Assembly (NCBI GenBank): GCA_002868945.1
Contig: PKTX01000003.1
Span: 1-49,950, forward strand
From: Desulfobulbaceae bacterium
Lineage (GTDB): Bacteria > Desulfobacterota > Desulfobulbia > Desulfobulbales > SURF-16
Length of the DNA: 49,950 nucleotides
Direction: 5' to 3'
The position numbers and the translations under genes are program-made. The first letter of the stretch is position 1. Every line of letters starts with the position of its first letter. The notes below the pieces were generated by a model. The model was not told the origin of the DNA and ran no database searches. It was given only the letters and a program-made list of their open reading frames with translations. Positions 5,778 to 30,603 of this stretch are shown in pieces.

Positions 5778-5807
5778 CTATCCTTTCCCACAAATGCCTC
5801 TCGTCAT
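5778..5807 (-). other. Mini-ORF in the qmoA leader
   Basis: Nine codons, MTRGICGKG then TAG, preceded by GGAGGAGA. The block GGAGGAG..TGGCATGAC is nearly repeated 70 bp further on at the true qmoA start. It could be a leader peptide or just a duplicated start region. The rest of 5740-6042 shows AT-rich sequence with possible promoter boxes (ATAATA around 5843) but nothing firm. Confidence 0.3.
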
Positions 5808-6042
5808 GCCATCTCTCCTCCGGGGCAGACAAAAGAAATCTTATTATGCGTGGGACGTTCAGGAAATTAACAATTTAGCCATAGTCCTTTACCAGAAACT
5901 GAATGGCAAATCAATAAGAAAGAAGCCCTTGGCGCGGCTCTCATCCAGCTTGGGCGCAGCAGGGCAAAATCCGCCTTGCCCGACCCACCAGGCAGCCTCT
6001 GACAGACAGACCACGGCCCCTGTTTCAGGGTGGCGGAAAAAA

Positions 6043-6084
6043 GACAAAAAAAACCCGGTCGCCTTACGGCGACCGGGTTTTTCT
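6043..6084 (-). terminator. Rho-independent terminator after aprA
   Basis: A 13-bp perfect stem (AAACCCGGTCGCC / GGCGACCGGGTTT, 6051-6063 with 6068-6080) with a 4-nt loop, followed on the minus strand by a T-run. It lies 40 bp beyond the aprA stop. The stem is flanked by A- and T-runs on both sides, so it could work in both directions. Confidence 0.92.
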
Positions 6085-6119
6085 AAGCAACGAGTAAATA
6101 ATCGCTTATCGGTACTGGA

Positions 6120-13752: not shown

Positions 13753-14931
13753 TTAATTGGCATTCTTCCTTATCCAGGCGGGCACATCCAGGGTCTCCTC
13801 GTCCAGGGGATTAACATCTGCGCCGAAGAGACTGGCCTGCTTCATCTGGTTCAGATGGCCGGAATGAAACGAGGGGGCATTATCCGTCTCATTGCGATAA
13901 TAGCGATCAGGCCGGTTGTCACCGTTGGCCACAAGGGGCGTTACCTCGGCCAGGGGAGCCAGTTTATTCTCCTCCTTGATGCCGGTGGCAACCACGGTCA
14001 CCCGCATCTCATCACCGGCATTCTCGTCAAAGATAACACCCATGATGATATTGGCATCCTCATGCACCTCGTTCTGGATACGGCTGGTGACCTCGGTGAC
14101 CTCATGCATGGCCAGTGAATCCTGACGGGCCGTCATATTGACCAGGACACCGCGTGCCCCCTGGATGGAGACATCCTTGAGCAGCGGGCTTTCAATGGCC
14201 TGCTTTACCGCCTCCTTGGCCCGGTTGTCGCCGCTACTGGAGCCGGAGCCCATCAGGGCGGTGCCCATCTCATTCATCACCGCGCAGACATCGGCAAAAT
14301 CGGGATTGATATAGCCGTCCATATTGATGAGATCGGTGATACCCTTGATCGCCTTGACCAGGACATCATCCACCATCTTCATGGAGTCCATGAACATGGT
14401 GGACTTCTGGGACAGGGCCAGGACCCGGTCATTGGGAATGGTGATAATGGTATCAACATTTTCCTTGAGTTCATCCCAACCCGCCTCCGCCTTTTTCATG
14501 CGGGCCTTGCCCTCAAAGGTAAAGGGCTTGGTAACAACCGCCACGGTAAGGGCGCCGACCTCCTTGGCGATCCGTGCGATAATGGGCGCGGCGCCGGTAC
14601 CGGTACCGCCGCCCAGACCGGCTGCCACAAAGACCATCTCCGAATCCTTCAGGGCCTCGCGGATGACGTCACGACTCTCCTCGGCGGATAGACGGCCAAT
14701 CTCGGGATTGGCGCCGGCGCCGCGCCCCTTACTGGTCTCCACGCCGAGCTGGATCTGGACATCGGCCCGCGATCGCTCCAAGGCCTGGACATCGGTATTG
14801 CCGGAGATAAACTCAACGCCGGTGATGCCGTTTTCCACCATGGTGTTCACGGCATTTCCGCCGCCGCCGCCGACGCCGAACACCTTGATGCGGGCTCGAC
14901 CTTCTATTGTTGCCATTTTAAAATCTGCCAT
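13753..14931 (-). CDS. ftsZ: Cell division protein FtsZ
   Basis: 392 aa tubulin-like GTPase that forms the division ring. The GTP-binding signature GGGTGTG is at residues 107-113, with the N-terminal VGGGGGNAVN loop at about 20-29 and the T7-loop NPDFADVCAVM near residue 207. The C-terminal end LDVPAWIRKNAN is the conserved peptide that binds FtsA and other partners. The ATG at 14931 is preceded by GAGGGG. It is the last gene of the dcw cluster, 113 bp after ftsA, and ends before a terminator. It looks fully functional. Confidence 0.98.
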   Translation of the reverse strand: MADFKMATIEGRARIKVFGVGGGGGNAVNTMVENGITGVEFISGNTDVQALERSRADVQIQLGVETSKGRGAGANPEIGRLSAEESRDVIREALKDSEMVFVAAGLGGGTGTGAAPIIARIAKEVGALTVAVVTKPFTFEGKARMKKAEAGWDELKENVDTIITIPNDRVLALSQKSTMFMDSMKMVDDVLVKAIKGITDLINMDGYINPDFADVCAVMNEMGTALMGSGSSSGDNRAKEAVKQAIESPLLKDVSIQGARGVLVNMTARQDSLAMHEVTEVTSRIQNEVHEDANIIMGVIFDENAGDEMRVTVVATGIKEENKLAPLAEVTPLVANGDNRPDRYYRNETDNAPSFHSGHLNQMKQASLFGADVNPLDEETLDVPAWIRKNAN

Positions 14932-15044: not shown

Positions 15045-16316
15045 CTACATGACACGCTTGAAAAAACTCTTTATCTTTTTACTGATCTTGCCCAGCATGG
15101 GACCGTTGTCCACCAGGAACTGGCCCGGTTCATGCTTGGCGCCATAGAGCAGAAGGCCGACACCTGTGGCACATTGCGGTGTGTTGACCAGATCGGTGAC
15201 GCCGCCCACATGGCGCGGATAGCCGATACGTACCGGCATATCAAAAATCTGCTCGGCCAGGTCGACCATGTGGGCCAGCAGCGAGCTGCCGCCGGTCATG
15301 ACAATGCCGGCATGCACCTTGCTTTTCACCTTGTTGTCAATCATCTGCTGATTGATCAGGGTCAGCATCTCCTCCACCCGGGGTTCAAGGATCTCACCCA
15401 TAACGCGCTGGGAGAGCTTGCGTGGTTTCTTTTCCCCCACTGACGGCACCTCGATGACCTGATCCTTGTCAATGAGCGATGCAATGGCGCAGCCATACTT
15501 CTCTTTGAGGCGCTCCGCGTCCTGAAGCGGCGTACGCAGCCCATGGGACAGGTCATTGGTGAGATTGTCGCCGCCGATACCCAGCACAAAGGTCTGCCGG
15601 ATGCAATTGTCGGCAAACACGGCCAGATCACTGGTGCCGCCGCCTATATCAAGCAATCCGACACCGAGTTCCTGTTCCTCCTCGGTCAAAACGGCATGGG
15701 CCGAGGCCACCGGCTCCAACACCACATCATCAACATCCAGACCCGCCTTGTTGCAGCATTTGACAATGTTATGGATGGCTGTGGCCGAACCGGTGACGAT
15801 ATGCACCTCGGCCTCCAGCCGCACCCCGGCCATACCGAGGGGATCCTGAATGCCGCCCTGGCCGTCGACAATAAACTCCTGGGGCAGGACATGGAGCACC
15901 TCCTGTTCCTGGGTGAGAGGAATGGCCTTGGCGTTTTCCACCACCCTGGCAATATCATCCTGGCTGATTTCATGATTTTTGAGGGCGATAACCCCGTCAC
16001 TGTTGACCCCCTTGACATGGGAGCCGGCAATGCCCACGAACACCGAAGAGATCTGACAGCCGGCCATGACCTCCGCCTCTTTGACGGAACGCTTAATGGA
16101 GTTGACCGTTGCCTCGATGTTGACCACCACCCCTTTGCGCATGCCGATGGAGGGATGCACGCCAATGCCGATGATGTCCACCTGATCAGGGAACACTTCC
16201 CCGACAATGGTACAGATCTTGGTGGTGCCGATATCCAGCCCCACCACTATTTCGCCCCGTTTTCTTTCCTGGCCCGTCGGCTTTGTCACTTTCTTCTCTT
16301 TCTCTTTTTTTGGCAT
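15045..16316 (-). CDS. ftsA: Cell division protein FtsA
   Basis: 423 aa actin-fold ATPase that tethers FtsZ to the membrane. The phosphate-1 motif VVGLDIGTTKICTIVGE is near residue 25, the LLDIGGGTSDLAVF phosphate-2 motif is near 215, and the adenosine motif GIVMTGGSSLL is near 340. The C-terminus ends ISKKIKSFFKRVM, a basic amphipathic helix of the membrane-targeting type. It lies 30 bp downstream of ftsQ in the same operon. Confidence 0.97.
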   Translation of the reverse strand: MPKKEKEKKVTKPTGQERKRGEIVVGLDIGTTKICTIVGEVFPDQVDIIGIGVHPSIGMRKGVVVNIEATVNSIKRSVKEAEVMAGCQISSVFVGIAGSHVKGVNSDGVIALKNHEISQDDIARVVENAKAIPLTQEQEVLHVLPQEFIVDGQGGIQDPLGMAGVRLEAEVHIVTGSATAIHNIVKCCNKAGLDVDDVVLEPVASAHAVLTEEEQELGVGLLDIGGGTSDLAVFADNCIRQTFVLGIGGDNLTNDLSHGLRTPLQDAERLKEKYGCAIASLIDKDQVIEVPSVGEKKPRKLSQRVMGEILEPRVEEMLTLINQQMIDNKVKSKVHAGIVMTGGSSLLAHMVDLAEQIFDMPVRIGYPRHVGGVTDLVNTPQCATGVGLLLYGAKHEPGQFLVDNGPMLGKISKKIKSFFKRVM

Positions 16317-16346: not shown

Positions 16347-17150
16347 TTAGCCGTTAAACTTCACAAGAACACGGCCTTCCAGATATTCCATATCAATGGA
16401 GGCCACCGTGCTGAATTTTTTCTTCTTATAGAGCCAGGCAAGCACCCTGGTTAAGCGCTTGTATTTTGTCCACATCTTGTCCCGCCCCAAAACCACGGGG
16501 AAGGGATTGTCGGCCAGAAAGAGGGTCATCGCCCCACTCTGGTCCAGCACAATCTGCGAGATATTCTGTTTGGGCAGATCAGGATTGCCATGGCTGGCGT
16601 AGCGCAGCATGTCCAGGGGCCCCTTCATGGTTTGCTGATCAGCCAGCATCTTCTCTTCAGGCACCTGCAGGACCGGATAATCAAGATCATCGCCGGCAGT
16701 AACCGGTGCAAAAATCCGACCCCTGCCGTCCATGTAGGACAACAGGCCGTTCACACTGATCATGGCAGCGGGTTTGCGTTCATTAACCACCAGGACAATA
16801 GTGTTGGGCCATTTTTTATGGACCTCCACGCCATCTATCCAGCCCGTCTTCCGCAGGGCCGCCTCAACCTCCTTTTTGCGGATCGCCACCAGGTTGCTCT
16901 TGTTGTCCAGGCGGGCCAGGCTGGCGACCTCTTCGGCGGAAAAGCGACTGGAACCCTCCACAACAATGGATTCCAGCTGAAAAAAAGAGCTGTGGCTGAC
17001 ACCGACATAGATCCCCCAGCCCACCATAAAGAGTAACCCCACGGCCAGGGCAAGTCCGGCGATAAGGGCATAGAGTTGGCGACGTTCGGAACGCTGGTCC
17101 GCCATTTTCTTCTGCAGGGGTGAAGAGTAGCCCCCCCTTCTCTTTTTCAT
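16347..17150 (-). CDS. ftsQ: Cell division protein FtsQ
   Basis: 267 aa bitopic divisome protein. It has a short basic cytoplasmic N-terminus, one membrane helix near residues 26-50 (LYALIAGLALAVGLLFMVGW) and then a POTRA domain (FQLESIVVEGSSRFSAEEVASL). The FtsQ domain follows, with NERKPAAMI and YPVLQVP segments. The ATG at 17150 overlaps the murB stop by one base (TGATG), indicating translational coupling; a TTG one codon upstream is less likely. FtsQ normally bridges FtsA/FtsZ to FtsB-FtsL and the FtsWI synthase, which is notable because FtsI here is degenerate. Confidence 0.93.
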   Translation of the reverse strand: MKKRRGGYSSPLQKKMADQRSERRQLYALIAGLALAVGLLFMVGWGIYVGVSHSSFFQLESIVVEGSSRFSAEEVASLARLDNKSNLVAIRKKEVEAALRKTGWIDGVEVHKKWPNTIVLVVNERKPAAMISVNGLLSYMDGRGRIFAPVTAGDDLDYPVLQVPEEKMLADQQTMKGPLDMLRYASHGNPDLPKQNISQIVLDQSGAMTLFLADNPFPVVLGRDKMWTKYKRLTRVLAWLYKKKKFSTVASIDMEYLEGRVLVKFNG

Positions 17151-18151
17151 CAATTTCCACCCGCAAAGCCAAGCAATCGCACTTCAGGTTCCAACAACAC
17201 GCCAAACTTCTCATTGACCGTGCTCTGCACCAGGTGCATGAGACGGACAAGATCATGGGCCGTGGCGCTGCCGGTATTAATCAGAAAATTGCCGTGCTTC
17301 TCTGAGACCATGGCACCGCCCAGCCGCTTGCCCTTGAGACCGGCCAGCTCGATAAGCTCGCCGGCGCTCCTGCCCTGGGGCGGATTTTTAAAAAAAGAAC
17401 CGCAACTTGCCTCCTGGGGCTGCTGCTTCATGCGGGCAGCCACCACCTTACGGCACTTTTCTTTTATGGCTGCCTTATCACCCCGCTGCAAACCGAAGAC
17501 ACCGGCCACAGCGATCAGACCGGCATCCTCGCCCCAGGAACGGTAGCCATAGTGCAGCTGGCCGGCTTCCTTGTCACAACACTCGCCATATTCATCCATC
17601 ACCGTTATGGAGCGTATCACCTGGGAAATATCACCGCCCCAAGCCCCGGCATTCATAACCAGAGCGCCACCGACGCTGCCGGGGATACCTGCGGCAAACT
17701 CCAGGCCGCTTAAGCCCTGCTCCGCACACCAATTCACCAGACGCGCCAAGCTGCAGCCCGCCTCCACCCGAACGTCCACCAGGCCATCCTTCTCCCCCAC
17801 CACCTCAATAGTGGCAAAGCGCTTGCCAAAGATCAGGGTGATGCCCTTGAGCCCCTCATCCGCCACGAGAATGTTGGAGCCGCCACCCACCAGACGCCAG
17901 GGAATATTCAGCCGCCGGATTCCCTTGAGCAGCAGGCTGAGCTCCCTGACACTGGCGGGCCAGATAATCGCCTCGGCGCAGCCCCCCACCCCGTAGCTGG
18001 TGAACTTGGCCATGTCCTGATTCCAAAGGACCTCGCCCAGCCAGAAATCGATCATCTCGTCGTTAAAATAATCAGCCCAGGCCGGCCGCGTCTCTGCCGC
18101 CGCCTCAACCGCCATATTCTCTTGCCATGTTGTCATTGCCACCGCTGCCAT
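17150..18151 (-). CDS. murB: UDP-N-acetylenolpyruvoylglucosamine reductase
   Basis: 333 aa FAD enzyme that reduces UDP-GlcNAc-enolpyruvate to UDP-MurNAc. The FAD_binding_4 domain shows TSYGVGGCAEAIIWP, LVGGGSNILVADEGLKG and GIPGSVGGALVMNAGAWG; the C-terminal MurB domain has GSFFKNP and KGKRLGGAMVSEKHGNFLIN. The catalytic Ser lies in CGSFFKNP. The ATG at 18151 has GGGGAGG five bases upstream; a longer frame from 18202 lacks a ribosome binding site. The stop overlaps the ftsQ start by one base. Confidence 0.96.
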   Translation of the reverse strand: MAAVAMTTWQENMAVEAAAETRPAWADYFNDEMIDFWLGEVLWNQDMAKFTSYGVGGCAEAIIWPASVRELSLLLKGIRRLNIPWRLVGGGSNILVADEGLKGITLIFGKRFATIEVVGEKDGLVDVRVEAGCSLARLVNWCAEQGLSGLEFAAGIPGSVGGALVMNAGAWGGDISQVIRSITVMDEYGECCDKEAGQLHYGYRSWGEDAGLIAVAGVFGLQRGDKAAIKEKCRKVVAARMKQQPQEASCGSFFKNPPQGRSAGELIELAGLKGKRLGGAMVSEKHGNFLINTGSATAHDLVRLMHLVQSTVNEKFGVLLEPEVRLLGFAGGN

Positions 18152-18216
18152 GCTGCCTCCCCTTCTTTGCCACGCTGAACCTCTACTGCCACCTGGGACC
18201 ATACGCCGTCGGCGCC

Positions 18217-19599
18217 TTACCCATTTTCCCCAAGAAGCCGGAGAAGCTCTTCACCGGCCTGGTATATATTGCCGGCACCCAGCGTCACCACCACATCTCC
18301 CTCGCTCAGCAGAGGAAAGGCAACGGCGGCCAGCTCTGCCACCCCCTCGGCCAAAAGAACGTCACGCTGGCCCCTTTCTTTAATGGCGGCAACGAGCCGG
18401 GCCGAATCGACCCCCTCGATGGGCGGTTCACTGGCCGGATAGATCTCGGTCATCACCAACAGATCCGCGGCATGAAACGCTGTACAGAACTCTTTAAAGA
18501 GTGACTGGGTGCGTGTGTAGCGATGGGGTTGAAAAAGCACGACAACCCTTCTCTTGGGCCAGGCGTCCTTGATGGCGCCCAGGGTGGCCTTGATCTCGGT
18601 GGGATGATGACCATAGTCGTCAATCACCGTGATCCCCCTCTCTTCACCTTTTATCTGCAGACGGCGCTGCACACCTCCCCATTTGCCGAGACCGGCGGCA
18701 ATGGTGGCAAAATCGATGCCGATTTCAAGGGCCACCGCCACGCTGGCCAGAGCATTATAGACATTATGAAGACCTGGAAACTTCAGGCTGATCTCACCCA
18801 GCACCTCGCGGCCCCGACAGACATCAAAGCGGCAACCAAAACCCTGTTTATCGATGGTACGGGTATGGATATCGGCTTGGGCGGTGAGGCCATAGGTAAT
18901 CACCCTTTTTTTGATCTGCGGCAGCAGTTCAACAATATTATCATCGTCAAGACAGAGGATTGCCGCGCCATAAAAGGGAATCTTGCTGACAAACTGCAGG
19001 AATACATCCTTGATCTCGTCGATGTTCCGGTAATAGTCGAGGTGCTCAAGGTCGATATTGGTCACCACCTCCACCACCGGAGCCAGGTGCAGAAAAGAGC
19101 CGTCGCTCTCATCCGCTTCGGCCACCAGAAACTCCCCTTCTCCCAGTTTGGCATTGCTGCCCAGGCTGTTGACCTGACCACCGATGACCACAGTAGGATC
19201 AAGCTTGGCCTCGGCCAGTACAGCACCCACCAGGGAGGTGGTTGAGGTCTTGCCGTGCGAGCCGGCAATGGCGATGCCGAACTTCTTGAGGCGCATGAGC
19301 TCAGCCAGCATCTCGGCCCTGGGGATGACCGGTATACCGGCCTCGCCGGCGGCCAACACCTCTGGATTGTCCCGACGAATGGCCGTGGAGGTGACCACCA
19401 CCTCGGCCCCCTCCACCCAGGCCGCATCATGGCCCTGATATATTGTCCCCCCCAGATCCTCAAGGCGCCTGGTAATGGGGGTGGTTGCCAGGTCGGATCC
19501 ACTTACCCGGTAACCCAGGTTGAGGAGAAGCTCGGCAATACCGCTCATGCCGATGCCGCCGATGCCCACGAAATGAATATGTTTATTTTTCTTGTACAC
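18217..19599 (-). CDS. murC: UDP-N-acetylmuramate--L-alanine ligase
   Basis: 460 aa cytoplasmic Mur ligase that adds L-Ala to UDP-MurNAc with ATP. The N-terminal Rossmann motif [12 protein letters not shown] is at 9-20 and the P-loop [10 protein letters not shown] near residue 113. [15 protein letters not shown] and [10 protein letters not shown] motifs of the family follow. It starts 12 bp after the murG stop and is followed by murB. Length is normal and all motifs look intact. Confidence 0.98.
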
Positions 19600-19611
19600 T
19601 TTTTTTGCCTG

Positions 19612-20703
19612 TTACATGATTGCGTTGTCACCGCACAGATCGAGACAGTGGCGGACGATTTTTTTGGCGGCAGCCGGCTCACCCAACCTGTGGGCCCTAT
19701 CCGCCATTTCCCGCCTCTTCCGGTCATTGTCGGCCAGCTCTACAATGAGTGCGGCCAGCTCCGCGCCGCTTGTCTCGTCTTCACGGCACTTTATGGCCGC
19801 ACCTGCCTCCACCAACCAATCCGCATTGATCTCCTGATGGTTGTCCGCCGCATGGGGGTATGGGATAAGAATCATCGGTTTCCCCATCACCGTCAATTCG
19901 GCCAGGCTGGTGGCACCAGCCCGCCCCACGACAAGATCAGCCTTGGCCAGCACAAAGGGCATCTGACTGAAGAAGGAGGCCACCCTGGCCGGAATCCCCG
20001 CCTCCTTGTAGGCCTGGCGCACGGATTTGCTGTCTTGCCTGCCTGTTTGATGAATAACAACAAAACCGGCCGGCACGGTTGTCCGCATGATCTGGGCCGC
20101 TTCCATCATCATGGTGTTGATGCTGTGGGCCCCCAGAGATCCGCCCATGACCACCAAGGTAAAATTATCACCGATCTTTTCGCCGCCGGACAGGGCCCGC
20201 ACCTCTTTGCGCACCGGGTTTCCGGTAAAAAAACACTTTCGGGCAGGAAATCGCTGCTCGCTGCCGGGAAAGGAGACAAATATCCTCTTCACCAGCCGTC
20301 CCAGGAGTCGATTGGCCAGACCGGGCACGGAGTTCTGCTCATGGATACAGGTCGGTATGCGTCGCAGCCAGGCCGCCAACAGGGGCGGACCGGTGACATA
20401 GCCGCCCACTCCCAGGACCACATCCGGCCTGAATCGGCTGATGATCCGCCAGGCGTCCCACAGGCTGGCCGGCATTCTCAGCAGGGCGCCCAGCTTCTGC
20501 CGCACTGTTTTACCCTTGATTCCCTCACTCTTCAAGACCACAAAGGGAAAGGGCTTGTCGCGCAAGACCTTGGCATCGGTCTCCCGCTCGGTGGCCACAT
20601 AGAGGACCTCACTGCGGGGCACGGAATCAAGGACCTCTTCTGCCACGGCAATACCCGGAAAAAGATGGCCGCCCGTGCCACCGCCACATATCAGCATTCG
20701 CAT
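19612..20703 (-). CDS. murG: Lipid II synthase MurG (GlcNAc transferase)
   Basis: 363 aa peripheral membrane glycosyltransferase (GT28) that adds GlcNAc to lipid I. The N-terminal MRMLICGGGTGGHLFPG carries the first GGTGGH loop. VVGVGGYVTGP-type, MGGSLGAHSIN and VVGRAGATSLAEL segments are all present. The ATG at 20703 has a GAGGGAGG site; the frame extends upstream to 20928 inside murD but without family similarity. In most dcw clusters ftsW sits immediately upstream. Here the gene follows murD by 19 bp with no ftsW between. Confidence 0.97.
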   Translation of the reverse strand: MRMLICGGGTGGHLFPGIAVAEEVLDSVPRSEVLYVATERETDAKVLRDKPFPFVVLKSEGIKGKTVRQKLGALLRMPASLWDAWRIISRFRPDVVLGVGGYVTGPPLLAAWLRRIPTCIHEQNSVPGLANRLLGRLVKRIFVSFPGSEQRFPARKCFFTGNPVRKEVRALSGGEKIGDNFTLVVMGGSLGAHSINTMMMEAAQIMRTTVPAGFVVIHQTGRQDSKSVRQAYKEAGIPARVASFFSQMPFVLAKADLVVGRAGATSLAELTVMGKPMILIPYPHAADNHQEINADWLVEAGAAIKCREDETSGAELAALIVELADNDRKRREMADRAHRLGEPAAAKKIVRHCLDLCGDNAIM

Positions 20704-20722
20704 GATACCGGCACCTCCCTCT

Positions 20723-22114
20723 TCATGTCCCTGCCCGGGCTGCCAGATGAGGCCCGGCCTCCAAGGCCGCCACCGCCTCCTGAAAAGCCCTGCCCCGTTC
20801 GCTATAACTGCTGAACATATCAAAACTGGCGCAGGCCGGTGACAGCAAAACCGTCTCGCCGCTTTGCGCCTGCCCGGCGGCCAGTCTGACGGCCTCCTCC
20901 AGGGAGGCGGCCCGCACGACTCGGACATCCTCCCCCCAGGCGGCTGCCATTTTGTCGGCTGCCTCGCCTATCAAAATCAGACTCTTCACCCGGCGGCTCA
21001 CATCGCCACTGACCCGGCTGTAATCGCCGCCCTTATCACGCCCCCCGGCAATCAGATGCACCGGTCCGGTCATGCCGGCCAGAGCCGACTGCAGGGCGCC
21101 GATATTGGTCGCCTTGGAATCATCAATATAGGTAACGCCCCTGATGATGGCGACTGTGCGCAGACGGTGCTCCAGCAGCCTAAAGGCGGCAAGCCCCTGT
21201 GCCACCGCCTCGGCCCTGCATGCCATGAGCCTGGCAACCATGATGGCGGCCAGGCAATTGTCACAGTTGGGATAGGTGCTGATCTCCTCGGGCAAGGAAT
21301 ATTCCTCCACCGCCTCTGCAGGCAGCTGCAAAAGGGCCGTGTTACCGGCCATCCTGGCCTGACAGCTCTTTTTCCGGCCAAATTCCCTGATGGTGGAGGG
21401 AATGGCGCTCAGTCTGCCGACAATCTCCGGGTCATCGCCGTTTATCACGGCAAAATCATGGCGCCGCTGCCGCTTGAAGATCTGCATTTTAGCTTCTGCA
21501 TAGGCGGCATAGGAGGCGTAGCGGTCCAGATGGTCAGGGCTGATATTGAGCAGTACCGCAACATGGGGCCGAAAAGCGGCACAGCTGTCCAGCTGAAAGC
21601 TGCTCACCTCAAGTACCAGAACATCCGCCTTCCCTTCCCGGGCGACAAAGTCACAGAGGGGAGTGCCGATATTGCCGCCCACAAAAACCCGTTTACCGTC
21701 AGCAGCCAGCATGGCGCCGATCATTGTGGTCACCGTGGTCTTGCCGTTTGTGCCGGTGACAGCGACGATGTCCACATCGGTGAAAAGGGCGCCAAGCTCC
21801 AGCTCGCCGATAACCGGGATACCACTCTGGCGGGCCTCCGCCAGTTGCGGCAAATCCAGGGGCACCCCGGGACTGACGATGATGCAGTGCGACCGGCAAA
21901 AGGTCTCTGTCCGATGGCCGTCAAATTCCAGGGCCACCTGCTTGTCGAGCAGCCATTGTTGCTGCTCGGCGTCCAGGCGGTCCAATGGGCCGCCGTCGCT
22001 GACGGCAAGACGGCAACCCTGCCGGGCCAGGAGACGCAAGGCCGCCATGCCGGACCGACCGGCCCCCACCACCAGGATATTCTTGTTGTTGGTGAAGAAT
22101 TTCGCCTCAATCAT
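20723..22114 (-). CDS. murD: UDP-N-acetylmuramoylalanine--D-glutamate ligase
   Basis: About 463 aa Mur ligase adding D-Glu. It shows an N-terminal Rossmann fold (NILVVGAGRSGMAALRLL), the P-loop VTGTNGKTTVTT, SSFQLD, NISPDHLDRY and IDDSKATN, and the C-terminal LLSPACASFDMFSSYSERG. The start is uncertain: ATG at 22114 or TTG at 22123, neither with a good ribosome binding site, so translation is probably coupled to mraY, which ends at 22127. It is followed directly by murG rather than ftsW. Confidence 0.95.
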   Translation of the reverse strand: MIEAKFFTNNKNILVVGAGRSGMAALRLLARQGCRLAVSDGGPLDRLDAEQQQWLLDKQVALEFDGHRTETFCRSHCIIVSPGVPLDLPQLAEARQSGIPVIGELELGALFTDVDIVAVTGTNGKTTVTTMIGAMLAADGKRVFVGGNIGTPLCDFVAREGKADVLVLEVSSFQLDSCAAFRPHVAVLLNISPDHLDRYASYAAYAEAKMQIFKRQRRHDFAVINGDDPEIVGRLSAIPSTIREFGRKKSCQARMAGNTALLQLPAEAVEEYSLPEEISTYPNCDNCLAAIMVARLMACRAEAVAQGLAAFRLLEHRLRTVAIIRGVTYIDDSKATNIGALQSALAGMTGPVHLIAGGRDKGGDYSRVSGDVSRRVKSLILIGEAADKMAAAWGEDVRVVRAASLEEAVRLAAGQAQSGETVLLSPACASFDMFSSYSERGRAFQEAVAALEAGPHLAARAGT

Positions 22115-22126
22115 GATAAGCAACCA

Positions 22127-23206
22127 TCAGCGCAGTTTCAGGGTGGCCAGGGCAATAAGACCCAAAACAATGGAGACAATCCAAAAGCGCACCACCACCT
22201 TGGGTTCCACCCAGCCCTTTTTTTCAAAGTGGTGATGAAAGGGGGCCATGAGAAAGATACGTTTGCCGCCCGACATCTTAAAATAGCCGACCTGCAGAAT
22301 CACGGAAATAGCCTCCATGACAAAGACACCGCCCACCAGGGCCAAGAGCACCTCCTGCTTGGTGACAATGGCCACTGTGCCGAGGGCGCCGCCAATGGAG
22401 AGCGACCCCACGTCCCCCATGAACATCTGTGCAGGAAAGGTGTTATACCACAGGAAGCCGAGGCTGGCGCCGGCCAGGGCGCCGCAGAAGATAACCACCT
22501 CGCCGGCACCGGCCACATGCGGAATCTGCAGATAGGTGGCCAGGCCCACATGCCCGGCCAGATAAGAAAAAAGCAGGTAGACGGCGCTGGTCACCACGGT
22601 TGGTCCGGTGGCCAGGCCATCAAGGCCGTCGGTCAGGTTGACGGCATTTGAGGCGCCCACCACCACAAACATGACAAAGGGGATATAAAACGCCCCCAGA
22701 TCCGGCTGAAACCCCTTGAAAAAAGGGATGGTGAGCGTGGTGAGATAGGAGGGCTGATTAGCGATGAAAACACCGGCCACCAGGGCACCCGCCACCTGCA
22801 GAAGCAGCTTGCCCTTGGCACTGAGCCCCCTGGAATTCTGTTTCTTGATCTTGCAATAGTCGTCCCAGGCACCGATCATGCCGTACCAGACGGTAATGCC
22901 CAGGATGATCCAGACATAGATATTGGTGAGATCGACCCAGAGCAGGGTCCCGGCCAGTACTCCACCGAGGATAAGGACCCCACCCATGGTGGGCACACCC
23001 TGTTTACTGAAATGGGACTCGGGCCCGTCATCCCGCACCACCTGCCCCACCTGATGGCGTTGCAACAGGCGGATAAACGGCCCGGCAAAACAAACCACCA
23101 GCAAAAAGGCGGTAATGGTCGCCCCTATACCGCGCAGACTGATGTAGCGGAAGACATTAAAGCCGCTGAAAACGGTATGGAGCGGATAGAGCAGATGATA
23201 TAACAT
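22127..23206 (-). CDS. mraY: Phospho-N-acetylmuramoyl-pentapeptide transferase MraY
   Basis: 359 aa polytopic membrane enzyme that makes lipid I from UDP-MurNAc-pentapeptide and undecaprenyl phosphate. The family start MLYHLLYP..FSGFNVFRYISLR, the DDGPESHFSKQGVPTMGG motif, the DDYCKIKKQNSRGLSAKGKL segment, the NAVNLTDGLDGLA motif and the C-terminal FLMAPFHHHFEKKG are all present. The ATG at 23206 fits the family N-terminus but no Shine-Dalgarno is visible, because a 7-bp repeat tract and a MITE-like element lie immediately upstream. Expression within the operon may depend on readthrough of that element. Confidence 0.97.
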   Translation of the reverse strand: MLYHLLYPLHTVFSGFNVFRYISLRGIGATITAFLLVVCFAGPFIRLLQRHQVGQVVRDDGPESHFSKQGVPTMGGVLILGGVLAGTLLWVDLTNIYVWIILGITVWYGMIGAWDDYCKIKKQNSRGLSAKGKLLLQVAGALVAGVFIANQPSYLTTLTIPFFKGFQPDLGAFYIPFVMFVVVGASNAVNLTDGLDGLATGPTVVTSAVYLLFSYLAGHVGLATYLQIPHVAGAGEVVIFCGALAGASLGFLWYNTFPAQMFMGDVGSLSIGGALGTVAIVTKQEVLLALVGGVFVMEAISVILQVGYFKMSGGKRIFLMAPFHHHFEKKGWVEPKVVVRFWIVSIVLGLIALATLKLR

Positions 23207-23211
23207 TAGTA

Positions 23212-23249
23212 GTCAGGATTCAGGTTTCAGATTACAGGACTCGTTTCAG
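23212..23249. repeat. Degenerate heptad repeat upstream of mraY
   Basis: A run of CAGGATT, CAGGTTT, CAGATTA, CAGGACT units starts 6 bp before the mraY ATG. It resembles the CTCCTGA/TCAGGAG heptads at 10335 and 43751 in inverse complement and occupies the place where an mraY ribosome binding site would be. Confidence 0.6.
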
Positions 23250-23262
23250 GTCGTTTTTTCCC

Positions 23263-23511
23263 TTAACAGCCCGTTGAAAAAGGTAGCGAGCGAAGCTGAG
23301 GCTAGAAAAAATGAGGCGAAAAATGCCCGCCCGCAGGAGGTAAGGGAGCCTGCGACACTTCGAGCACCCTTGGGGTGCAGTCTACATGGGGTTTAGGAGC
23401 ATTTCGGAGTCTCGCTCCGCTCGCTTAGCTCCAGCCGAATTCTGACACGCATCAGCAGATAGCGAACAAAGAGAGACCTTCGAGCGCAGCAGCTTTTCAA
23501 CAGGCTGTTAA
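23263..23511. mobile_element. MITE-like element, family A copy 1 (inside dcw operon)
   Basis: About 249 bp bounded by inverted repeats: left TTAACAGCCCGTTGAAAA (23263-23280), right end reading on the minus strand TTAACAGCCTGTTGAAAA (23494-23511). No ORF of note. It is homologous to the element at 36643-36818 in opposite orientation, but carries two extra blocks (about 23337-23370 and 23404-23432) that resemble family B repeats. It sits between murF and mraY, and its right end contains the murF stop codon. Confidence 0.8.
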
Positions 23512-25001
23512 CCCAGTTCACGCTGCAGTCCCTCAATGATCTTTTCCATGCACATTCCGCGCGATCCTTTCACCAGGAAATAGTCGCCCGGCCCAAAGGA
23601 TTTTTCCTCCATACATTCAAAGATGGTCTGCAGTATGGCTTCCTTGTCAGGTAACTGATGGACCTGGCGCCTGGCCATGGAGGCATCCATGGCCCCCTGG
23701 GCGACAATCTTGGAATATTCGCCATAAACCAGCAGATAATCAAAGCCCTTACAGGCAACCATCTCGCCCAGTCGGCGATGTGCCTTTTCACTCTCCTCCC
23801 CCAGTTCCAGCATATCGCCGAGGATGGCAATGGTCTTGCGGCTCCCCCGCATGGCCTGCACGGTATCAAAGGCGGCCATCATGGAGGCGGGATTGGCGTT
23901 ATAACAGTCATTAACGATTTTCAGGCCGCCGATATCCATGATTTCCAAGCGCTTATCAAAGGCCTTGAATTTTTCCAGGCCCTCGACAATCTGACTGATA
24001 TCAAGACCGGCGGCATGGCCGATGGCGGCGGCGGCCAAGGCGTTTGAAACATTGTGTTCACCCATGACACTCATCTGCAGACGCTGACGCTCACCACCGA
24101 CATGCAGAGTAAAGGCCATGCCTTTTTCACCCATGTTCTTGACATGGGTGGCCCTGATCAGGGCCTTGCAGTGGCGACCATAGGGGATCTTGTCCTGATG
24201 GAGCTTACGAGCCAGGGCCCTGACCATCTTGTCGTCGTAGTTAACGCAGAGCCGGGCCCAGGAGCTGCACCCTCTGAAGAGCTCACCCTTGGCCCGCGCC
24301 ACACCCTCCACCGAACCGAGCCCGGCCAGATGGGCGGCCTGAATATTGACAATACAGGCAATGTCAGGATCGGCAATCTCCGCCATCCGGGCTATTTCAC
24401 CGGGGCGGTTCATCCCCATCTCCAAAACCGCCACGTCGTGCTGGTTATCCACCGGCAGCAGCGACAACGGCATGCCGATCAGGTTGTTAAAATTGCCCTT
24501 TGTCTTTAAGACATTAAATTCGTCGGCCAGGATGGCGGCGCTCATCTCCTTCACCGTGGTCTTTCCGGAGCTGCCGGTGATCGCCACCACCTTCAAATCG
24601 GTCACCTCGGCGCGGCGATAGGCGGCAAGGTCGCCTAAGGCATGCAGGGTGTCATCAACCTGGATAACCGGCACGTCAAGAACCTCATCCGGCACCACAT
24701 CAACGACAATCCCTCCGGCTCCCTTTTGGACGGCCTCCAGGGCAAACTCGGCCCCATCAAAATTGGCGCCGCTCAAGGCGACAAAGAGATCTCCTTTTTT
24801 GATGGTCCTGGTATCCGTGGATACCCCGCCGAATTTAGCCTTGGCCGGACCGGAGACAAACCTGCCGCCGGTGGCAAGGAGAACATCGCTTAACCTCCAG
24901 GTCACGTCTTCCACCACGGCATCTCCTTGGTTGACTTCCGGCATGCCGGCCGACACTGCCGCACCAGTTGATCTCGCTTCTCTACATCGCAAAATTTCCA
25001 T
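23508..25001 (-). CDS. murF: UDP-N-acetylmuramoyl-tripeptide--D-Ala-D-Ala ligase
   Basis: 497 aa Mur ligase that completes the UDP-MurNAc-pentapeptide. The N-terminal domain with GVSTDTRTIKKGDLFVAL is followed by the P-loop ITGSSGKTTVKE, then KGNFNNLIGMPLSLL, EMGMNRPGEI, NDCYNANPASM and GDMLELGEES. The ATG at 25001 has GAGGAG seven bases upstream, 28 bp after murE; a longer frame to 25097 runs into murE and is unlikely. The TAA stop lies within the terminal inverted repeat of the adjacent MITE-like element, so the very C-terminus may have been reshaped by the insertion. Confidence 0.96.
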   Translation of the reverse strand: MEILRCREARSTGAAVSAGMPEVNQGDAVVEDVTWRLSDVLLATGGRFVSGPAKAKFGGVSTDTRTIKKGDLFVALSGANFDGAEFALEAVQKGAGGIVVDVVPDEVLDVPVIQVDDTLHALGDLAAYRRAEVTDLKVVAITGSSGKTTVKEMSAAILADEFNVLKTKGNFNNLIGMPLSLLPVDNQHDVAVLEMGMNRPGEIARMAEIADPDIACIVNIQAAHLAGLGSVEGVARAKGELFRGCSSWARLCVNYDDKMVRALARKLHQDKIPYGRHCKALIRATHVKNMGEKGMAFTLHVGGERQRLQMSVMGEHNVSNALAAAAIGHAAGLDISQIVEGLEKFKAFDKRLEIMDIGGLKIVNDCYNANPASMMAAFDTVQAMRGSRKTIAILGDMLELGEESEKAHRRLGEMVACKGFDYLLVYGEYSKIVAQGAMDASMARRQVHQLPDKEAILQTIFECMEEKSFGPGDYFLVKGSRGMCMEKIIEGLQRELG

Positions 25002-25029
25002 TTTTTTCTCCTCGAACCTGTACGAAGTT

Positions 25030-26580
25030 TCAGGCTGCCCCCACAGCCTTCCCCCAAACCTTCTCAAGTTCTCTTTTTGCCTCAAGGCGATCATCAAAAT
25101 GCACCCTACCTGATCGCGTCAGCTGATAATCTTCGTGCCCCTTGCCGCTTATCAACACCACATCGTCCCTGTGGGCAAGGCGGATGGCGGCGGCAATGGC
25201 CTGGTGCCGTGATTCAATAACAAGGTATTGCCCGGCCCTTGTGCCGACCTCATCCCCGTCAACTCTTCTGGCGCCCCGTTCCTGCATACCTGCTTCTATA
25301 TCGGCTATGATCCGGCCCGGCTCCTCACTGCGCGGATTATCGGATGTAATAATGGCCAGATCAGCATACCGTACCGCTATGCCCCCCATTATCGGCCTCT
25401 TGCCTCGATCACGGTCGCCGCCACAACCAAACACGACGATGAGCCGGCCGCGGGTCAAGGATTTGATGGTCTGCAGGACATTCCGCAGGGCATCCGGGCT
25501 ATGGGCATAATCGACAAGAACCTTGGGGTGGACGCCTCCGGTCAACGCCACACTCTCCATACGCCCCGGCGCTCCGCCACTCCGAGCAATGGCCTGCTGC
25601 ATGGCCGGCACGGAAAAGCCGAGGCCGAGACCAAGCCCCAGGACAGCGAGGATATTACGCGTATTGAATGCGCCCACCAGCGGCGAGGAAAACAGCGCCT
25701 GGCGACCGGCCAGATCAACAGTCATGCTGATACCGCTCAGGGTTATCTTTTCCCGGCTGCTGCTGATCATCTGGCCCGGCCCGCAGGTCATGACCCGGGC
25801 ATGGCCCTGCTCGCAGAGGCCTTTTGCCAGTTGATCACCCCATCCCCGGCGGCCATCACAGACAATCACCGCCAGGCCGCCCGGCTTCAAATAGCACTCA
25901 AACAGTTCTTTTTTGGCGGCAAAATAGTCCTCCATGGTGCCATGATAATCAAGGTGGTCGCGGCTCAGGTTGGTGAAGAGGGCACCATCAAAGTCAACAC
26001 CCGCCACCCGGCCCTGCTGCAAGGCATGGGAGGAAACCTCCATGATCACATGAGTGACACCAGCCTCGACCATCTCCGCCAGCAGTTGCTGGAGCTGGAC
26101 CGGATCCGGTGTGGTATGGCTTGCCGTCCGACAGACGCCTGGGTAACGAAAATTCACCGTGCCAAGGACGCCGGGCCTGCCACCGTCGCAGCGCACCATC
26201 TCCTCAAGAAGATAGGAGCAGGTGGTCTTGCCATTGGTGCCGGTGATGGCAATGACATGCAGTCCGGCGGCCGGATGGCCATAAAAGGTTGCAGCCAAAG
26301 GGCCTAAAAGCCGGGCGCTATCCTCCACGCCGAATTGCGGTACGCCAAGACCAGCCACCTCCCGGCCCCGATTGACGACAACCGCCCTGGCCCCGGCCGC
26401 CACCGCCTGGCGCAGATAAGCATGGCCATCGCTCTGCATGCCCTTGACGGCAACAAAGAGGGCGCCGGGCTCCACGGTCCGGGAATCGGCGGTAAGACTC
26501 AGCACCTGCGGATCGGCACCATCAGCGGGCCCGACATAGGGCAGGCCGACCAGCAGATCTGTTACCTTGCGGGCCTTCAT
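25030..26580 (-). CDS. murE: UDP-MurNAc-tripeptide synthetase (meso-DAP adding)
   Basis: 516 aa Mur ligase adding the third residue. The P-loop ITGTNGKTTCS is near residue 115, HTTPDPVQLQ and NLSRDHLDYHGT follow, and DYAHSPDALRNVL and GCGGDRDRGKRPIM lie in the C-terminal part. The motif DNPRSEEP is the DNPR signature that selects meso-diaminopimelate, so the cell wall is of the Gram-negative DAP type. Its start overlaps the ftsI stop by four bases (ATGA). Confidence 0.97.
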   Translation of the reverse strand: MKARKVTDLLVGLPYVGPADGADPQVLSLTADSRTVEPGALFVAVKGMQSDGHAYLRQAVAAGARAVVVNRGREVAGLGVPQFGVEDSARLLGPLAATFYGHPAAGLHVIAITGTNGKTTCSYLLEEMVRCDGGRPGVLGTVNFRYPGVCRTASHTTPDPVQLQQLLAEMVEAGVTHVIMEVSSHALQQGRVAGVDFDGALFTNLSRDHLDYHGTMEDYFAAKKELFECYLKPGGLAVIVCDGRRGWGDQLAKGLCEQGHARVMTCGPGQMISSSREKITLSGISMTVDLAGRQALFSSPLVGAFNTRNILAVLGLGLGLGFSVPAMQQAIARSGGAPGRMESVALTGGVHPKVLVDYAHSPDALRNVLQTIKSLTRGRLIVVFGCGGDRDRGKRPIMGGIAVRYADLAIITSDNPRSEEPGRIIADIEAGMQERGARRVDGDEVGTRAGQYLVIESRHQAIAAAIRLAHRDDVVLISGKGHEDYQLTRSGRVHFDDRLEAKRELEKVWGKAVGAA

Positions 26581-28526
26581 GGCTTGGCGCCCTCCTGAAC
26601 CTGCTCCTGCACGGCCAGACGAAGCTGGACGCGTTCACCGCACTCTTGGCCAGGCTCCGGCTGCTGCCCGACCACCCTGCCGGCCCCGACAATCTCCACC
26701 TCCACCCGGCAGGCCATCAACTGCCGCAGGGCCTTACGCAAACTCTTCCCCAGCAGATCCGGCATTTTGCCGGAGGCAGTCGGCGCCAGGGTCTCGCCGG
26801 TAACGACCAGCTTCTGTTGCTGCTGCCATGCCTGAAAAAGCCGTGAGGTATCGGGCAGCCCGGCAACATCACTCGAGGTGTTGCCGGATTCCATCTTTTT
26901 GGCGGCCTCTTCCAGGAAGGTATTGGCAAATCGGCGCATGGGCGAGGCGGCCCTCACATCAAAATCACCATTTTGCACCGAGACCAAAAGCACCAGCTGC
27001 GGCTTTTTAATCGGCGCCACGGCAACAAGCAGACCGTCAAAGGTCTGCTCGCCCTCCACCACACTGCTGGCCTGATCCCCCTCTTGGCTCTCCAACACAA
27101 AGTCGTCATCCCGGCCCAGGGGGAAGAGATATTCCGCCGCAAAGAAAGGCGCCTCTGCACCGGCACTTGCCGCAAAGGATTCTCGCAAGACCGCACTTAC
27201 CTCAGGCATCTCGCGGCCGTTGCCGGTAAAGCGGCGCGCCGCAAAACGACCCTCACCATCCATGGTGCCCCTTAAAAAATGGAGCGGCACCACCTTGCCG
27301 CCATTCACCAGACGGGCAAAGGCACCCAGCAGCGAAACACCGTTTAATCGGCCACCGGCGCAGGGATCCTCATCCAGGTTTGAGGCCGCCTTGGCCGGCA
27401 AATCGACAAGGTCGGCACAACTGATGCCCAGATCGCGCTGAAAGCCGAGAAGGGCCTCCTCGGCAATGCTGGGATCGGGCAACTCCGCCAGTTCATCAGA
27501 GATAAAACCGCCGCCGGGCCACGGCCACCAGTATCCGGCCCGTGCCCGGGTGCCGCTTTTCAACTGCCGCGGCTTAACGACCGGCACAGGCTCATCTGCC
27601 ACGGAGCGCATGCGGACATCAACACCGGCATGGACCGCGGCCCCATAGCGCAATATCCCGGAAATACCGCCCGGGTTCATGGTCCTGGAGACCATGTCCA
27701 TCTTCTGGCTTTGCGGTGGGGCATTCCAGAAGGAATTGGGATTAAAGGAGGGAAGTTGAGCAGAGGCGATAATTTCACCGGTGGCGGGATCCACCGCCAT
27801 GGCTGCCACGGAACTGGCCTGTGTCTTGTCCAGCAATAATGCCATCTGCTTCTCCAGGATGGTCTGGATTTTCAGATCAAGGGTGAGAACGAGATGGCTG
27901 CCCTCACGAAAGAGCTGATCTCCGGCGTGCGCTGTAATCCCCTGAATAGTTCGGGGCCGCAACTCCTTGTCGTAGAAGAGCTCCACCCCATCCAAGCCCT
28001 GTTCATCCTTGACATAGCCGAGGACCTGGGCAGCTGTTTCACCATGGGGATAAAAGCGGACCGGCGCTTTCTGAAAGTAGAGACCGGCTATATTATGCCT
28101 TATCAATTCGGCAACCTTTTCCTTGGCAACTCGATGACCAAGCCAGATGAAGCTTTGTTCCTTACGGAGTCGCTTGACCAGCTCTTCCCGGTCAAGATCC
28201 AGGATTGTTGCAAGGATCTCTCCTGTCCTAAAACTGTCCTCCACCTCCAACGGTTTTACATAGACTGCATATAGCTCAAAACTTACGGCAAGCGGCTCCA
28301 GGGAGCGATCATAAATACTTTTCCGAACCTCATAGGAGTAGTCACCCAAGACGGCCATGGCCGATTCTTTCTGCTGCCGACCGGCAATAACCATCCACAA
28401 AACTGCTCCGCCAACCACAAGAATCAGCAAAAAGGCCCGCGCCCTGATGCGTGTTTTCCAGCCAGGCTTTTTCTTCTGCCCATACCGCTTGTAATCGATG
28501 GGCATGTTGCGTCTTTGATAGCCCAT
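26577..28526 (-). CDS. ftsI: FtsI/PBP3-like protein with degenerate transpeptidase domain and PASTA domain
   Basis: 649 aa from ATG 28526 (GGAGGG upstream). It has a short basic N-terminus and a membrane helix near residues 28-48. The PBP dimerisation region looks sound (RKSIYDRSLEPLAVS; AAQVLGYVKDEQGLDGVE; VDPATGEIIASAQLPSFNP), and a single C-terminal PASTA domain runs from about 588 to 638. The transpeptidase part looks dead. Where the family has EPGSTFK this protein reads NPGGISG (284-290), so the nucleophile Ser and its Lys partner are both Gly. No SxN motif (the region reads FISDELAEL) and no KTG(T) motif (ESQEGDQAS in its place) can be found. The flanking pattern LLGFQRDLGI and VAPIKKPQLVLLVSVQ shows that the domain is otherwise still alignable. 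The frame is open throughout, which argues against recent decay. It probably acts as a structural divisome component. Confidence 0.88.
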   Translation of the reverse strand: MGYQRRNMPIDYKRYGQKKKPGWKTRIRARAFLLILVVGGAVLWMVIAGRQQKESAMAVLGDYSYEVRKSIYDRSLEPLAVSFELYAVYVKPLEVEDSFRTGEILATILDLDREELVKRLRKEQSFIWLGHRVAKEKVAELIRHNIAGLYFQKAPVRFYPHGETAAQVLGYVKDEQGLDGVELFYDKELRPRTIQGITAHAGDQLFREGSHLVLTLDLKIQTILEKQMALLLDKTQASSVAAMAVDPATGEIIASAQLPSFNPNSFWNAPPQSQKMDMVSRTMNPGGISGILRYGAAVHAGVDVRMRSVADEPVPVVKPRQLKSGTRARAGYWWPWPGGGFISDELAELPDPSIAEEALLGFQRDLGISCADLVDLPAKAASNLDEDPCAGGRLNGVSLLGAFARLVNGGKVVPLHFLRGTMDGEGRFAARRFTGNGREMPEVSAVLRESFAASAGAEAPFFAAEYLFPLGRDDDFVLESQEGDQASSVVEGEQTFDGLLVAVAPIKKPQLVLLVSVQNGDFDVRAASPMRRFANTFLEEAAKKMESGNTSSDVAGLPDTSRLFQAWQQQQKLVVTGETLAPTASGKMPDLLGKSLRKALRQLMACRVEVEIVGAGRVVGQQPEPGQECGERVQLRLAVQEQVQEGAKP

Positions 28527-28807: not shown

Positions 28808-29173
28808 CTAAAAGGCAACCTTTTGCCGTTTATCCGGGCTGTACAGACCGACCTGCACAGCGGCCAGGGCCTCAAGGCGCTGACCCTGCAGGAGACGGTC
28901 CTGCTCCCGGAGCAGGGTTGTCTTGACCTGCTCCTTCTCACTGCGCAGCTCCTGGGCCTGGGCGATTTCCGTCAGACTTTCCTGAATACAATGCCCCACC
29001 CAATAGCTTGCCGTTACCCCGACCAGTGCGGCAAAAAGCATGATGCCCCCCAGGCTTTTCCAGAATAAAACGGAGTTGCCGCTGGTGCGGCTCATGCTCC
29101 GCCAGCCCCGGCGTTGCCGGACAACAGACCGCCTGGTCCTGGTCTGATAATAGTTCCCTGCATAATCACGCAT
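28808..29173 (-). CDS. ftsL: FtsL-like cell division protein
   Basis: 121 aa bitopic protein. It has a basic cytoplasmic N-terminus of ~38 residues rich in Arg, a single membrane helix near residues 41-60 (LGGIMLFAALVGVTASYWVG) and a periplasmic heptad-rich segment (LTEIAQAQELRSEKEQVKTTLL) typical of the FtsL coiled coil. Sequence identity in this family is always low. The call rests on topology and on the position between rsmH and ftsI. FtsL normally joins FtsB and FtsQ to activate FtsWI. Confidence 0.8.
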   Translation of the reverse strand: MRDYAGNYYQTRTRRSVVRQRRGWRSMSRTSGNSVLFWKSLGGIMLFAALVGVTASYWVGHCIQESLTEIAQAQELRSEKEQVKTTLLREQDRLLQGQRLEALAAVQVGLYSPDKRQKVAF

Positions 29174-29176: not shown

Positions 29177-30073
29177 TTATTCTCCGATAACCTCTGCAAC
29201 CCTTAACTTTGCACTTCTGGAGCGGGGATTGGCCGCCACCTCGCTACTGCCGGCCACCACAGGTCGGGCAGTCAGCACCTGCAAGCGCGGATGATCCCGG
29301 AAGGCCCGCTTCACCAGCCTGTCCTCCAGGGAGTGAAAGGAGATCACGCAAAAACGACCACCGGGGCGTAAAACCTCCGGACCGTCGGCCAGGACCCGCA
29401 CCAAATTGTCAAGCTCCCTGTTGACCGCGATGCGCAACCCCTGAAAAACCTTGGTGGCCATGTGAATCCTGCGGGGGTGGAAACGCCTGGGCACGGTACG
29501 CTCCACCAACTCTGCCAGCTCCCGGCTGCTTTCCAGGGGGTGCCGTATACGCCGCTCAACAATGGCCCGGGCAATGGGCCGCGCCTGCCTCTCCTCGCCG
29601 AAGAGATAAAAAATATCAGCCAGCTCCTCGACGCTGGCCGTGGCCAGTATATGGGCCGCCGTCACCTCCTGCCTGGTATCCATGCGCATGTCCAGGGGCT
29701 CATCACCCTTGAAACTAAAGCCCCGACCGCTGTCATCCAGATGCAGGGAGGAGAGGCCCAGATCGAGTAAAAGGCCATCCACCTCGCCTATCTGCCTTCT
29801 GGCCAGCTCATCCTTAAGCTCGGCGAAATTGGTGCGGACAAACACCACCTGATCACCGAAGCCGGCCAGGTTCCGCCGGGCCCGCTGCTGGGCCGCTTCA
29901 TCCCAATCAAAACCAATGAGCCGGCAACGCGGTCCGCCCGCCTCCAGGATAGCACCGGCATGACCGCCCAGCCCCAGATTGCCGTCTACATAAATGCCGC
30001 CGGGTCTGGGTTGCAAAAACTCAACAACTTCCTTGACTAAAACCGGGGCATGGAGGGGGTCATGGGCATACAT
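29177..30073 (-). CDS. rsmH: 16S rRNA (cytosine1402-N4)-methyltransferase RsmH (MraW)
   Basis: 298 aa SAM-dependent methyltransferase of 16S rRNA C1402. It shows HAPVLVKEVVEFL at the start, the SAM-binding DGNLGLGGHAGAIL, IGFDWDEAA, DGLLLDLGLSSLHLDDSGRGFSF and DMRMD, and FCVISFHSLEDRLVKRAF near the C-terminus. It is six bases downstream of mraZ, the standard dcw arrangement. Confidence 0.98.
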   Translation of the reverse strand: MYAHDPLHAPVLVKEVVEFLQPRPGGIYVDGNLGLGGHAGAILEAGGPRCRLIGFDWDEAAQQRARRNLAGFGDQVVFVRTNFAELKDELARRQIGEVDGLLLDLGLSSLHLDDSGRGFSFKGDEPLDMRMDTRQEVTAAHILATASVEELADIFYLFGEERQARPIARAIVERRIRHPLESSRELAELVERTVPRRFHPRRIHMATKVFQGLRIAVNRELDNLVRVLADGPEVLRPGGRFCVISFHSLEDRLVKRAFRDHPRLQVLTARPVVAGSSEVAANPRSRSAKLRVAEVIGE

Positions 30074-30079
30074 ACACTG

Positions 30080-30553
30080 TTAAAAAAAGCCCAGATCACT
30101 GCACTCACCGGCCAGATCATCAAACTCGTCATCAGCAATAATATTTTCGGCCAGATGGATTTCCTTGTCCCACACCTCAAAAAAGGTGGTCATACCGAGC
30201 AGGACCACCTCTTTGTCGATATTGCCCATGGTCCGCAAGGTGATGGGCAGCAGGATACGGCCGTTTTTATCCAGCTGCACCTCGGCGGAATTACCAACCA
30301 GGTGCCGCACCAGCTTGGCGGTCTTGGCATTTTGTTGACCGCGGCTCAGGATGGCGTATTCGATCCTGGCCCACTCCGGCAGGGGATAGATGCGCAGACA
30401 TTTGCGCCAGGGGGTGATAAGCAGACGATCGTCATACTTCCGAGACAAGACATCCTTGAAGCGGGCGGGGATATTCAGCCTGCCCTTACTGTCAAGGCCG
30501 TGCTCGGAGCTTCCCCGGAAGCTATTGATCTGCTCTAGAACACCTTCAGTCAC
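30080..30553 (-). CDS. mraZ: Transcriptional regulator MraZ
   Basis: 157 aa AbrB-like DNA-binding protein that represses its own dcw operon. Two repeats of the MraZ fold are visible: FRGSSEHGLDSKGRLNIPARF and, in the second half, AEVQLDKNGRILLPITLRTMG. The open frame extends upstream to a TTG at 30595, but that would put the operator repeats inside the gene. A GTG at 30553, with AAGGGG upstream and close to the conserved SFRGSSEH, is preferred. It is the first gene of the dcw operon, directly behind a promoter and three putative MraZ boxes. Confidence 0.93.
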   Translation of the reverse strand: MTEGVLEQINSFRGSSEHGLDSKGRLNIPARFKDVLSRKYDDRLLITPWRKCLRIYPLPEWARIEYAILSRGQQNAKTAKLVRHLVGNSAEVQLDKNGRILLPITLRTMGNIDKEVVLLGMTTFFEVWDKEIHLAENIIADDEFDDLAGECSDLGFF

Positions 30554-30569
30554 TCTCCACCCCTTCAGG

Positions 30570-30593
30570 CCACTTTGAACCACTTTACACCAC
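30570..30593 (-). promoter_or_regulatory. Putative MraZ operator: three GTGG boxes with 10-bp period
   Basis: On the minus strand GTGG occurs at 30590-30593, 30580-30583 and 30570-30573, each exactly 10 bp apart, with AAA before the second and third boxes. This matches the MraZ box style known from other bacteria (GTGG-type repeats at 10-bp period). The boxes lie just downstream of the predicted transcription start, a typical repressor site. Confidence 0.7.
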
Positions 30594-30603
30594 AATACCT
30601 TCC

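Follow-up and report, generated by a model that had tools for sequence, protein, structure and literature searches.

Desulfobulbales retain a catalytically dead FtsI in the division cluster and lack FtsW

We report that the FtsI orthologue in the dcw cluster of a Desulfobulbaceae bacterium keeps the architecture of a division penicillin-binding protein (PBP) and lacks the chemistry. Throughout the order Desulfobulbales the catalytic motifs are absent, the PBP3 fold is kept, and RodA–PBP2 is the only SEDS/class B pair that is left. Our reading, to which we give a probability of roughly three in four, is that an ancestor of the Desulfobulbales lost FtsW together with the D,D-transpeptidase activity of FtsI, and that FtsI was maintained as a scaffold in an FtsW/FtsI-independent divisome. 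Because FtsW is gone and FtsI is dead, the division wall must come from another enzyme.

A dcw-encoded FtsI without catalytic motifs

The gene occupies positions 26577–28526 on the minus strand of the window (the whole stretch of 49,950 nucleotides that was analysed) and encodes 649 amino acids. An earlier note, made from the sequence alone, had given the coordinates correctly and described the frame (649 codons by our count) as open, leaving the strand unstated. Translation begins at an ATG at 28526, with an alternative in-frame TTG at 28547, and the terminal TGA overlaps the ATG of murE. Lying between ftsL and murE, the gene sits where synteny places ftsI, in a minus-strand series that runs mraZ, mraW, ftsL, ftsI, murE, murF, mraY, murD, murG, murC, murB, ftsQ, ftsA and ftsZ. 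The cluster starts with mraW and mraZ (29177–30595, identified through matches in related loci) and ftsL (28808–29173), which was assigned from a TIGR02209 match below the cut-off of that model (E 2e-4) plus its canonical position. The precursor genes from murE to murB span 17150–26580 and are followed by ftsQ (16347–17153), ftsA (15045–16316; TIGR01174, 3.8e-137) and ftsZ (13753–14931; TIGR00065, 5.8e-118). Elsewhere in the window, at 901–8135, frames resemble QmoC, QmoB, QmoA and AprA of sulfate reduction, as judged by eye from their translations.

In the slot of EPGSTFK, the alignment and the sequence place NPGGISG (residues 284–290; 27657–27677, minus strand), with GGT as codon 287 at 27666–27668, exactly as had been noted. 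The only S..K in the protein is at residue 595, inside the PASTA domain, and the catalytic domain holds no SxxK serine elsewhere. S.N occurs at residues 260 and 547, neither of which is the SxN position, and the one K[ST]G, a KSGT at residue 323, lies about 37 residues past the SxxK slot and off the KTG strand. The ESQEGDQAS segment that had been proposed to replace KTG is residues 479–487, in a low-confidence loop of the predicted model. The earlier claim that all three transpeptidase motifs are gone is borne out, and the protein has none of SxxK, SxN and KTG at the catalytic positions of a septal D,D-transpeptidase. At the place of the KSGT (residues 323–326, about 27549–27560, minus strand), the near relatives L015, L017, L018 and L019 carry KSG or KTG.

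Conserved fold and purifying selection

An N-terminal helix with the membrane anchor (residues 23–58; 28353–28460, from the AlphaFold2 model) is followed by the pedestal, or PBP dimerisation domain (about residues 66–232; 27831–28331; Pfam PBP_dimer, 8.9e-13), by the pseudo-transpeptidase domain (about residues 233–547; 26886–27830) and by a PASTA domain (residues 587–628; 26643–26768; Pfam PF03793, 2.6e-6), all on the minus strand. The two Pfam matches agree with the earlier description of a conserved dimerisation region and C-terminal PASTA domain. Against Pfam Transpeptidase, the best stretch covers just the first 58 of 299 columns. An AlphaFold2 model made with 47 sequences (pLDDT 82, pTM 0.75) nevertheless matched SpoVD and PBP3 structures in Foldseek (E 1e-32). 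With VIA-align the top PDB match was SpoVD (7rcz_B; Z 36.9, r.m.s.d. 4.2 over 418 residues), and FtsI of the FtsWIQBL complex (8bh1_B) scored Z 34; overall, the model aligned to PBP3 and SpoVD with Z 34–37 over about 335–430 residues, so the fold has been kept and the chemistry lost. The motifs R..xxDR, RxYP and GxxGxExxxD, which we take to be the pedestal motifs of class B proteins, are present as R68/D73, residues 157–160 and residues 177–186, and vary little or not at all across 47 orthologues.

A protein query over 58 genomes, drawn from the same genus, family and order, recovered orthologues from 57. Thirty of these were aligned and set against PBP2 of the source genome, then against catalytic FtsI from other families of the phylum, and not one of them had SxxK, SxN or KTG. 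In all 47 aligned orthologues, both the serine and the lysine of SxxK are absent from their slots: column 287 is A, G, L, E, P or V and column 290 is never K, so that the Gly/Gly site whose conservation the earlier note raised is variable. A dead FtsI was also found in a scan of named genomes, in Desulfobulbus rhabdoformis DSM 8777, Desulfurivibrio sp. AMeS2 and Desulfocapsa, and in the cable bacteria Ca. Electrothrix (three) and Ca. Electronema. A narrower profile was used to scan the collection, because one built from 28 diverse sequences was too variable. Loose pattern matches to KTG or SxN in L084, L085, L090 and L091 were taken to be fortuitous, since the members of the order examined in the alignment have none of these motifs.

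Over 17 related pairs, dN/dS for ftsI was 0.08–0.28, and the whole-gene value is comparable to those of the adjacent mur genes. Pooled by region, it was 0.098 in the pedestal, 0.17 in PASTA, 0.19 in residues 233–305, about 0.30 in the rest of the pseudo-catalytic domain and 0.44 in the N-terminal region. Selection on the protein is purifying and is strongest on the pedestal. The proposal of a maintained pseudo-enzyme rather than a decaying gene is therefore supported by the order-wide absence of motifs, the purifying selection and the retained fold.

FtsW is absent and RodA is the lone SEDS protein

The source genome (3.7 Mb, 83 contigs, 99.99% complete) encodes one SEDS protein, adjoining mreD and mrdA. 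At the canonical ftsW site in the window, the murD–murG junction is 19 bases long (20704–20722, minus strand; murD stop at 20723, murG ATG at 20703), too small for a gene. A single SEDS protein is likewise found in almost all of the 58 relatives, and the mode elsewhere in the phylum is two. In trees, the lone SEDS protein falls with RodA rather than FtsW, and the sole catalytic class B PBP with MrdA rather than FtsI (SH-aLRT 100 for both splits), so neither FtsW nor FtsI has merely moved; relocation of FtsW outside the dcw cluster, in particular, is ruled out. The second catalytic ftsI that the earlier note suggested seeking is missing from the genome, in which the other penicillin-binding domains belong to PBP2/MrdA and class A PBPs.

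The two losses go together. Across 85 dcw loci, every one of the 36 that have a catalytic FtsI also has a SEDS gene, against 0 of 49 without one. The named loci contribute 30 without catalytic FtsI (no SEDS) and 20 with it (SEDS present; L139 counted), and 35 further loci from the phylum contribute 19 that lack both and 16 that have both, with no exception. Two loci that had appeared to break the association, L139 and L160, carry EPGSIFK and EPGSVLK and are catalytic; the L139 motif had escaped the search pattern.

Because FtsW is absent too, septal polymerisation and cross-linking must both have shifted elsewhere. The earlier note had proposed that another enzyme cross-links the septum while FtsI acts as a scaffold or regulator. 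The first part fits a genome without a catalytic ftsI and the second we infer, and the loss of the polymerase had been overlooked.

A 99%-complete relative without SEDS and PBP2 (G057) was considered as a case relying on class A PBPs alone and was rejected: an assembly gap is likelier, because the adjacent hemH is missing as well. In the single-contig genome G031, a frameshift divides RodA between two frames (L265, 9590–10785); the gene is otherwise intact, and the shift could reflect either a genuine lesion or a sequencing error. In other members of the phylum (G071, G202, G075, G146 and G119), the lone SEDS protein is the dcw FtsW, FtsI is catalytic and RodA has apparently been lost.

Related losses across Desulfobacterota

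Non-catalytic FtsI proteins of graded length occur in other families of the phylum. The full-length protein of f28 (643 amino acids) matches the entire transpeptidase profile at 102 bits yet has no SxxK. Lengths are 538–569 amino acids in f66, f72, f76 and f86, about 455 in f75, 412–440 in f40 and about 330–340 in f39, in which no PASTA domain was detected. In f35 and f65, the ftsI slot holds a protein of 248–356 amino acids with only an anchor at the N terminus and a PASTA match at the C terminus, from which the whole pedestal is gone (L192, 7095–7895, and L193, 9076–9819, both minus strand; L194–L197). Given that f35 and f65 lack the pedestal and f39 lacks a detected PASTA domain, no single retained part accounts for all lineages.

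Exactly where ftsW would lie, between murD and murG, f35 and f65 encode a membrane protein of about 267 amino acids (L192, 1110–1910, L193, 3088–3897, and L195, 2654–3454, minus strand; L197, 14033–14833, plus strand). It has no Pfam match, and two of three tested copies align weakly with one SEDS region (E 0.02–0.04); it is possibly a shrunken remnant of FtsW. The best concatenated tree implies five changes and several losses of the pair; a topology that unites every affected lineage in one clade is not rejected by the AU test (p 0.29).

Septal synthesis without an FtsW–FtsI pair

FtsQ, FtsL, FtsB, FtsA and FtsZ are retained, and FtsB was found in all 20 genomes examined. Each of 39 genomes searched carries two or more class A glycosyltransferase (GT51) genes, PBP1A type included, and most also have one of about 1100 amino acids; in addition to PBP2, the source genome encodes a 679-amino-acid class A PBP and another of at least 1089 amino acids. 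In the class A PBPs, no testable division-specific feature was apparent. In such a divisome, the pseudo-FtsI would still be anchored, with its helix and pedestal binding FtsQLB and its PASTA domain binding septal peptidoglycan, and, in the simplest reading, it would serve as an adaptor that links FtsQLB to a different synthase, recruiting that enzyme or switching it on. By analogy with Clostridioides difficile, the septal synthase would be a class A PBP, at about even odds; RodA–PBP2 is a somewhat weaker candidate. We favour the class A PBPs, and nothing that we computed separates the two.

The case for RodA keeps the main explanation and specifies the synthase. RodA would pair with PBP2 in elongation and would also be the septal polymerase, brought to the septum or activated there by the pseudo-FtsI, with the pedestal as the activating part and with PBP2 or class A PBPs cross-linking. 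It is the sole SEDS protein, and the strongest constraint on the pseudo-FtsI falls on the pedestal, which is the part that touches the SEDS partner in known pairs. The catalytic serine of Bacillus subtilis FtsI is, moreover, dispensable though the protein is essential (PMC5656894). However, C. difficile, in which RodA–PBP2 is the sole essential SEDS pair, elongates with that pair and divides via a class A PBP (PMC10693644), and f35 and f65 retain RodA yet have no pedestal. We hold a septal RodA to be a real contender, at slightly less than an even chance.

As in the C. difficile divisome, no functional FtsW–FtsI pair serves vegetative division in our reading of the Desulfobulbales, RodA–PBP2 is the only other SEDS pair, and FtsQ, FtsL and FtsB homologues are kept (PMC10693644, PMC12539705); in C. 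difficile, FtsQLB is dispensable for vegetative division (PMC10693644, PMC12539705). By contrast, C. difficile keeps an active dcw pair, SpoVE–SpoVD, for sporulation, whereas the Desulfobulbales have lost the dcw SEDS gene and retain a dead dcw PBP, and septal synthesis by class A PBP1, shown in C. difficile (PMC10693644, PMC12539705), is conjectured here. The pseudo-FtsI shares gene position, membrane anchor, pedestal motifs and fold (Z 34–37) with FtsI/PBP3 and SpoVD, the class B PBPs of dcw clusters, and has a PASTA domain as SpoVD and PBP2x do, but differs in its missing motifs and in a genome without an FtsW partner. In B. subtilis, PBP2B works without its serine (S309A mutant) when helped by PBP3 (PMC5656894), so that in both cases a division PBP is possibly needed structurally without catalysis; S309A is a laboratory mutation with FtsW intact (PMC5656894), whereas the dead FtsI is natural and fixed order-wide.

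The accessible text of one study reports ftsW, ftsN and zipA as absent from Ca. Electrothrix and two Desulfobulbus genomes, the absence of ftsW covering four Desulfobulbaceae genomes, cable bacteria included; in that text, FtsI is discussed as an active septal synthase and the loss of its active site is unmentioned (PMC7873302). The absence of FtsW in Desulfobulbaceae is therefore already published, and what appears to be new is the dead FtsI, retained in a proposed FtsW/FtsI-independent divisome. No published report of an inactive FtsI in Desulfobulbales was found in a search of mainly open-access journal articles. FtsW–FtsI has been described as universally conserved and essential for the septal wall, and C. 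difficile, probably with other Clostridia, is the exception named (PMC10693644, PMC12539705). The Desulfobulbales, an entire Gram-negative order that includes the cable bacteria, and several further families of the phylum have lost FtsW and kept FtsI, its anchor and FtsQLB without the chemistry, which opens the questions of what FtsI does beyond catalysis and what FtsQLB targets when FtsW is absent. Unusual responses to beta-lactams are predicted, with PBP3-selective drugs giving no division block. Tentatively, we propose a natural divisome without SEDS–class B synthase activity of its own, in which a dead FtsI held by FtsQLB would direct a class A PBP (or RodA–PBP2) to the septum, and whose dcw pair would have eroded stepwise across Desulfobacterota, beginning with a dead FtsI of full length and ending in a membrane stub with PASTA; in two families a shrunken remnant of FtsW may also persist.

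Other explanations for the retained protein

The pseudo-FtsI might instead have left division and been kept for another job, for example to sense cell-wall fragments or beta-lactams through PASTA, as the retention of anchor plus PASTA alone in f35 and f65 could suggest. We consider this improbable, given that the gene is invariably found in the dcw cluster, flanked by murE and by the mraW/ftsL region, and that the pedestal is under the strongest constraint in Desulfobulbales. Decay of ftsI as a pseudogene after the loss of FtsW is very unlikely: the relaxed pseudo-catalytic core and the shortened versions in other families speak for it, but the frame is open and full length in nearly all genomes, whole-gene dN/dS is far under 1, pedestal and PASTA residues are invariant in 47 orthologues, and neither dN/dS near 1 nor frequent stops within genera were seen for ftsI. 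Catalysis through a different nucleophile or rearranged motifs is less plausible still; we found no support for it, and the residues in the SxxK slot vary freely in a catalytic domain that offers no other SxxK. The window is one contig of an 83-contig assembly, but assembly error (which the earlier note had named as a possible undoing of its claim), chimaera or contamination is no explanation and has a negligible chance, because dozens of independent assemblies show the same state, including the single-contig G024 and the isolates D. rhabdoformis DSM 8777 and Desulfurivibrio sp. AMeS2.
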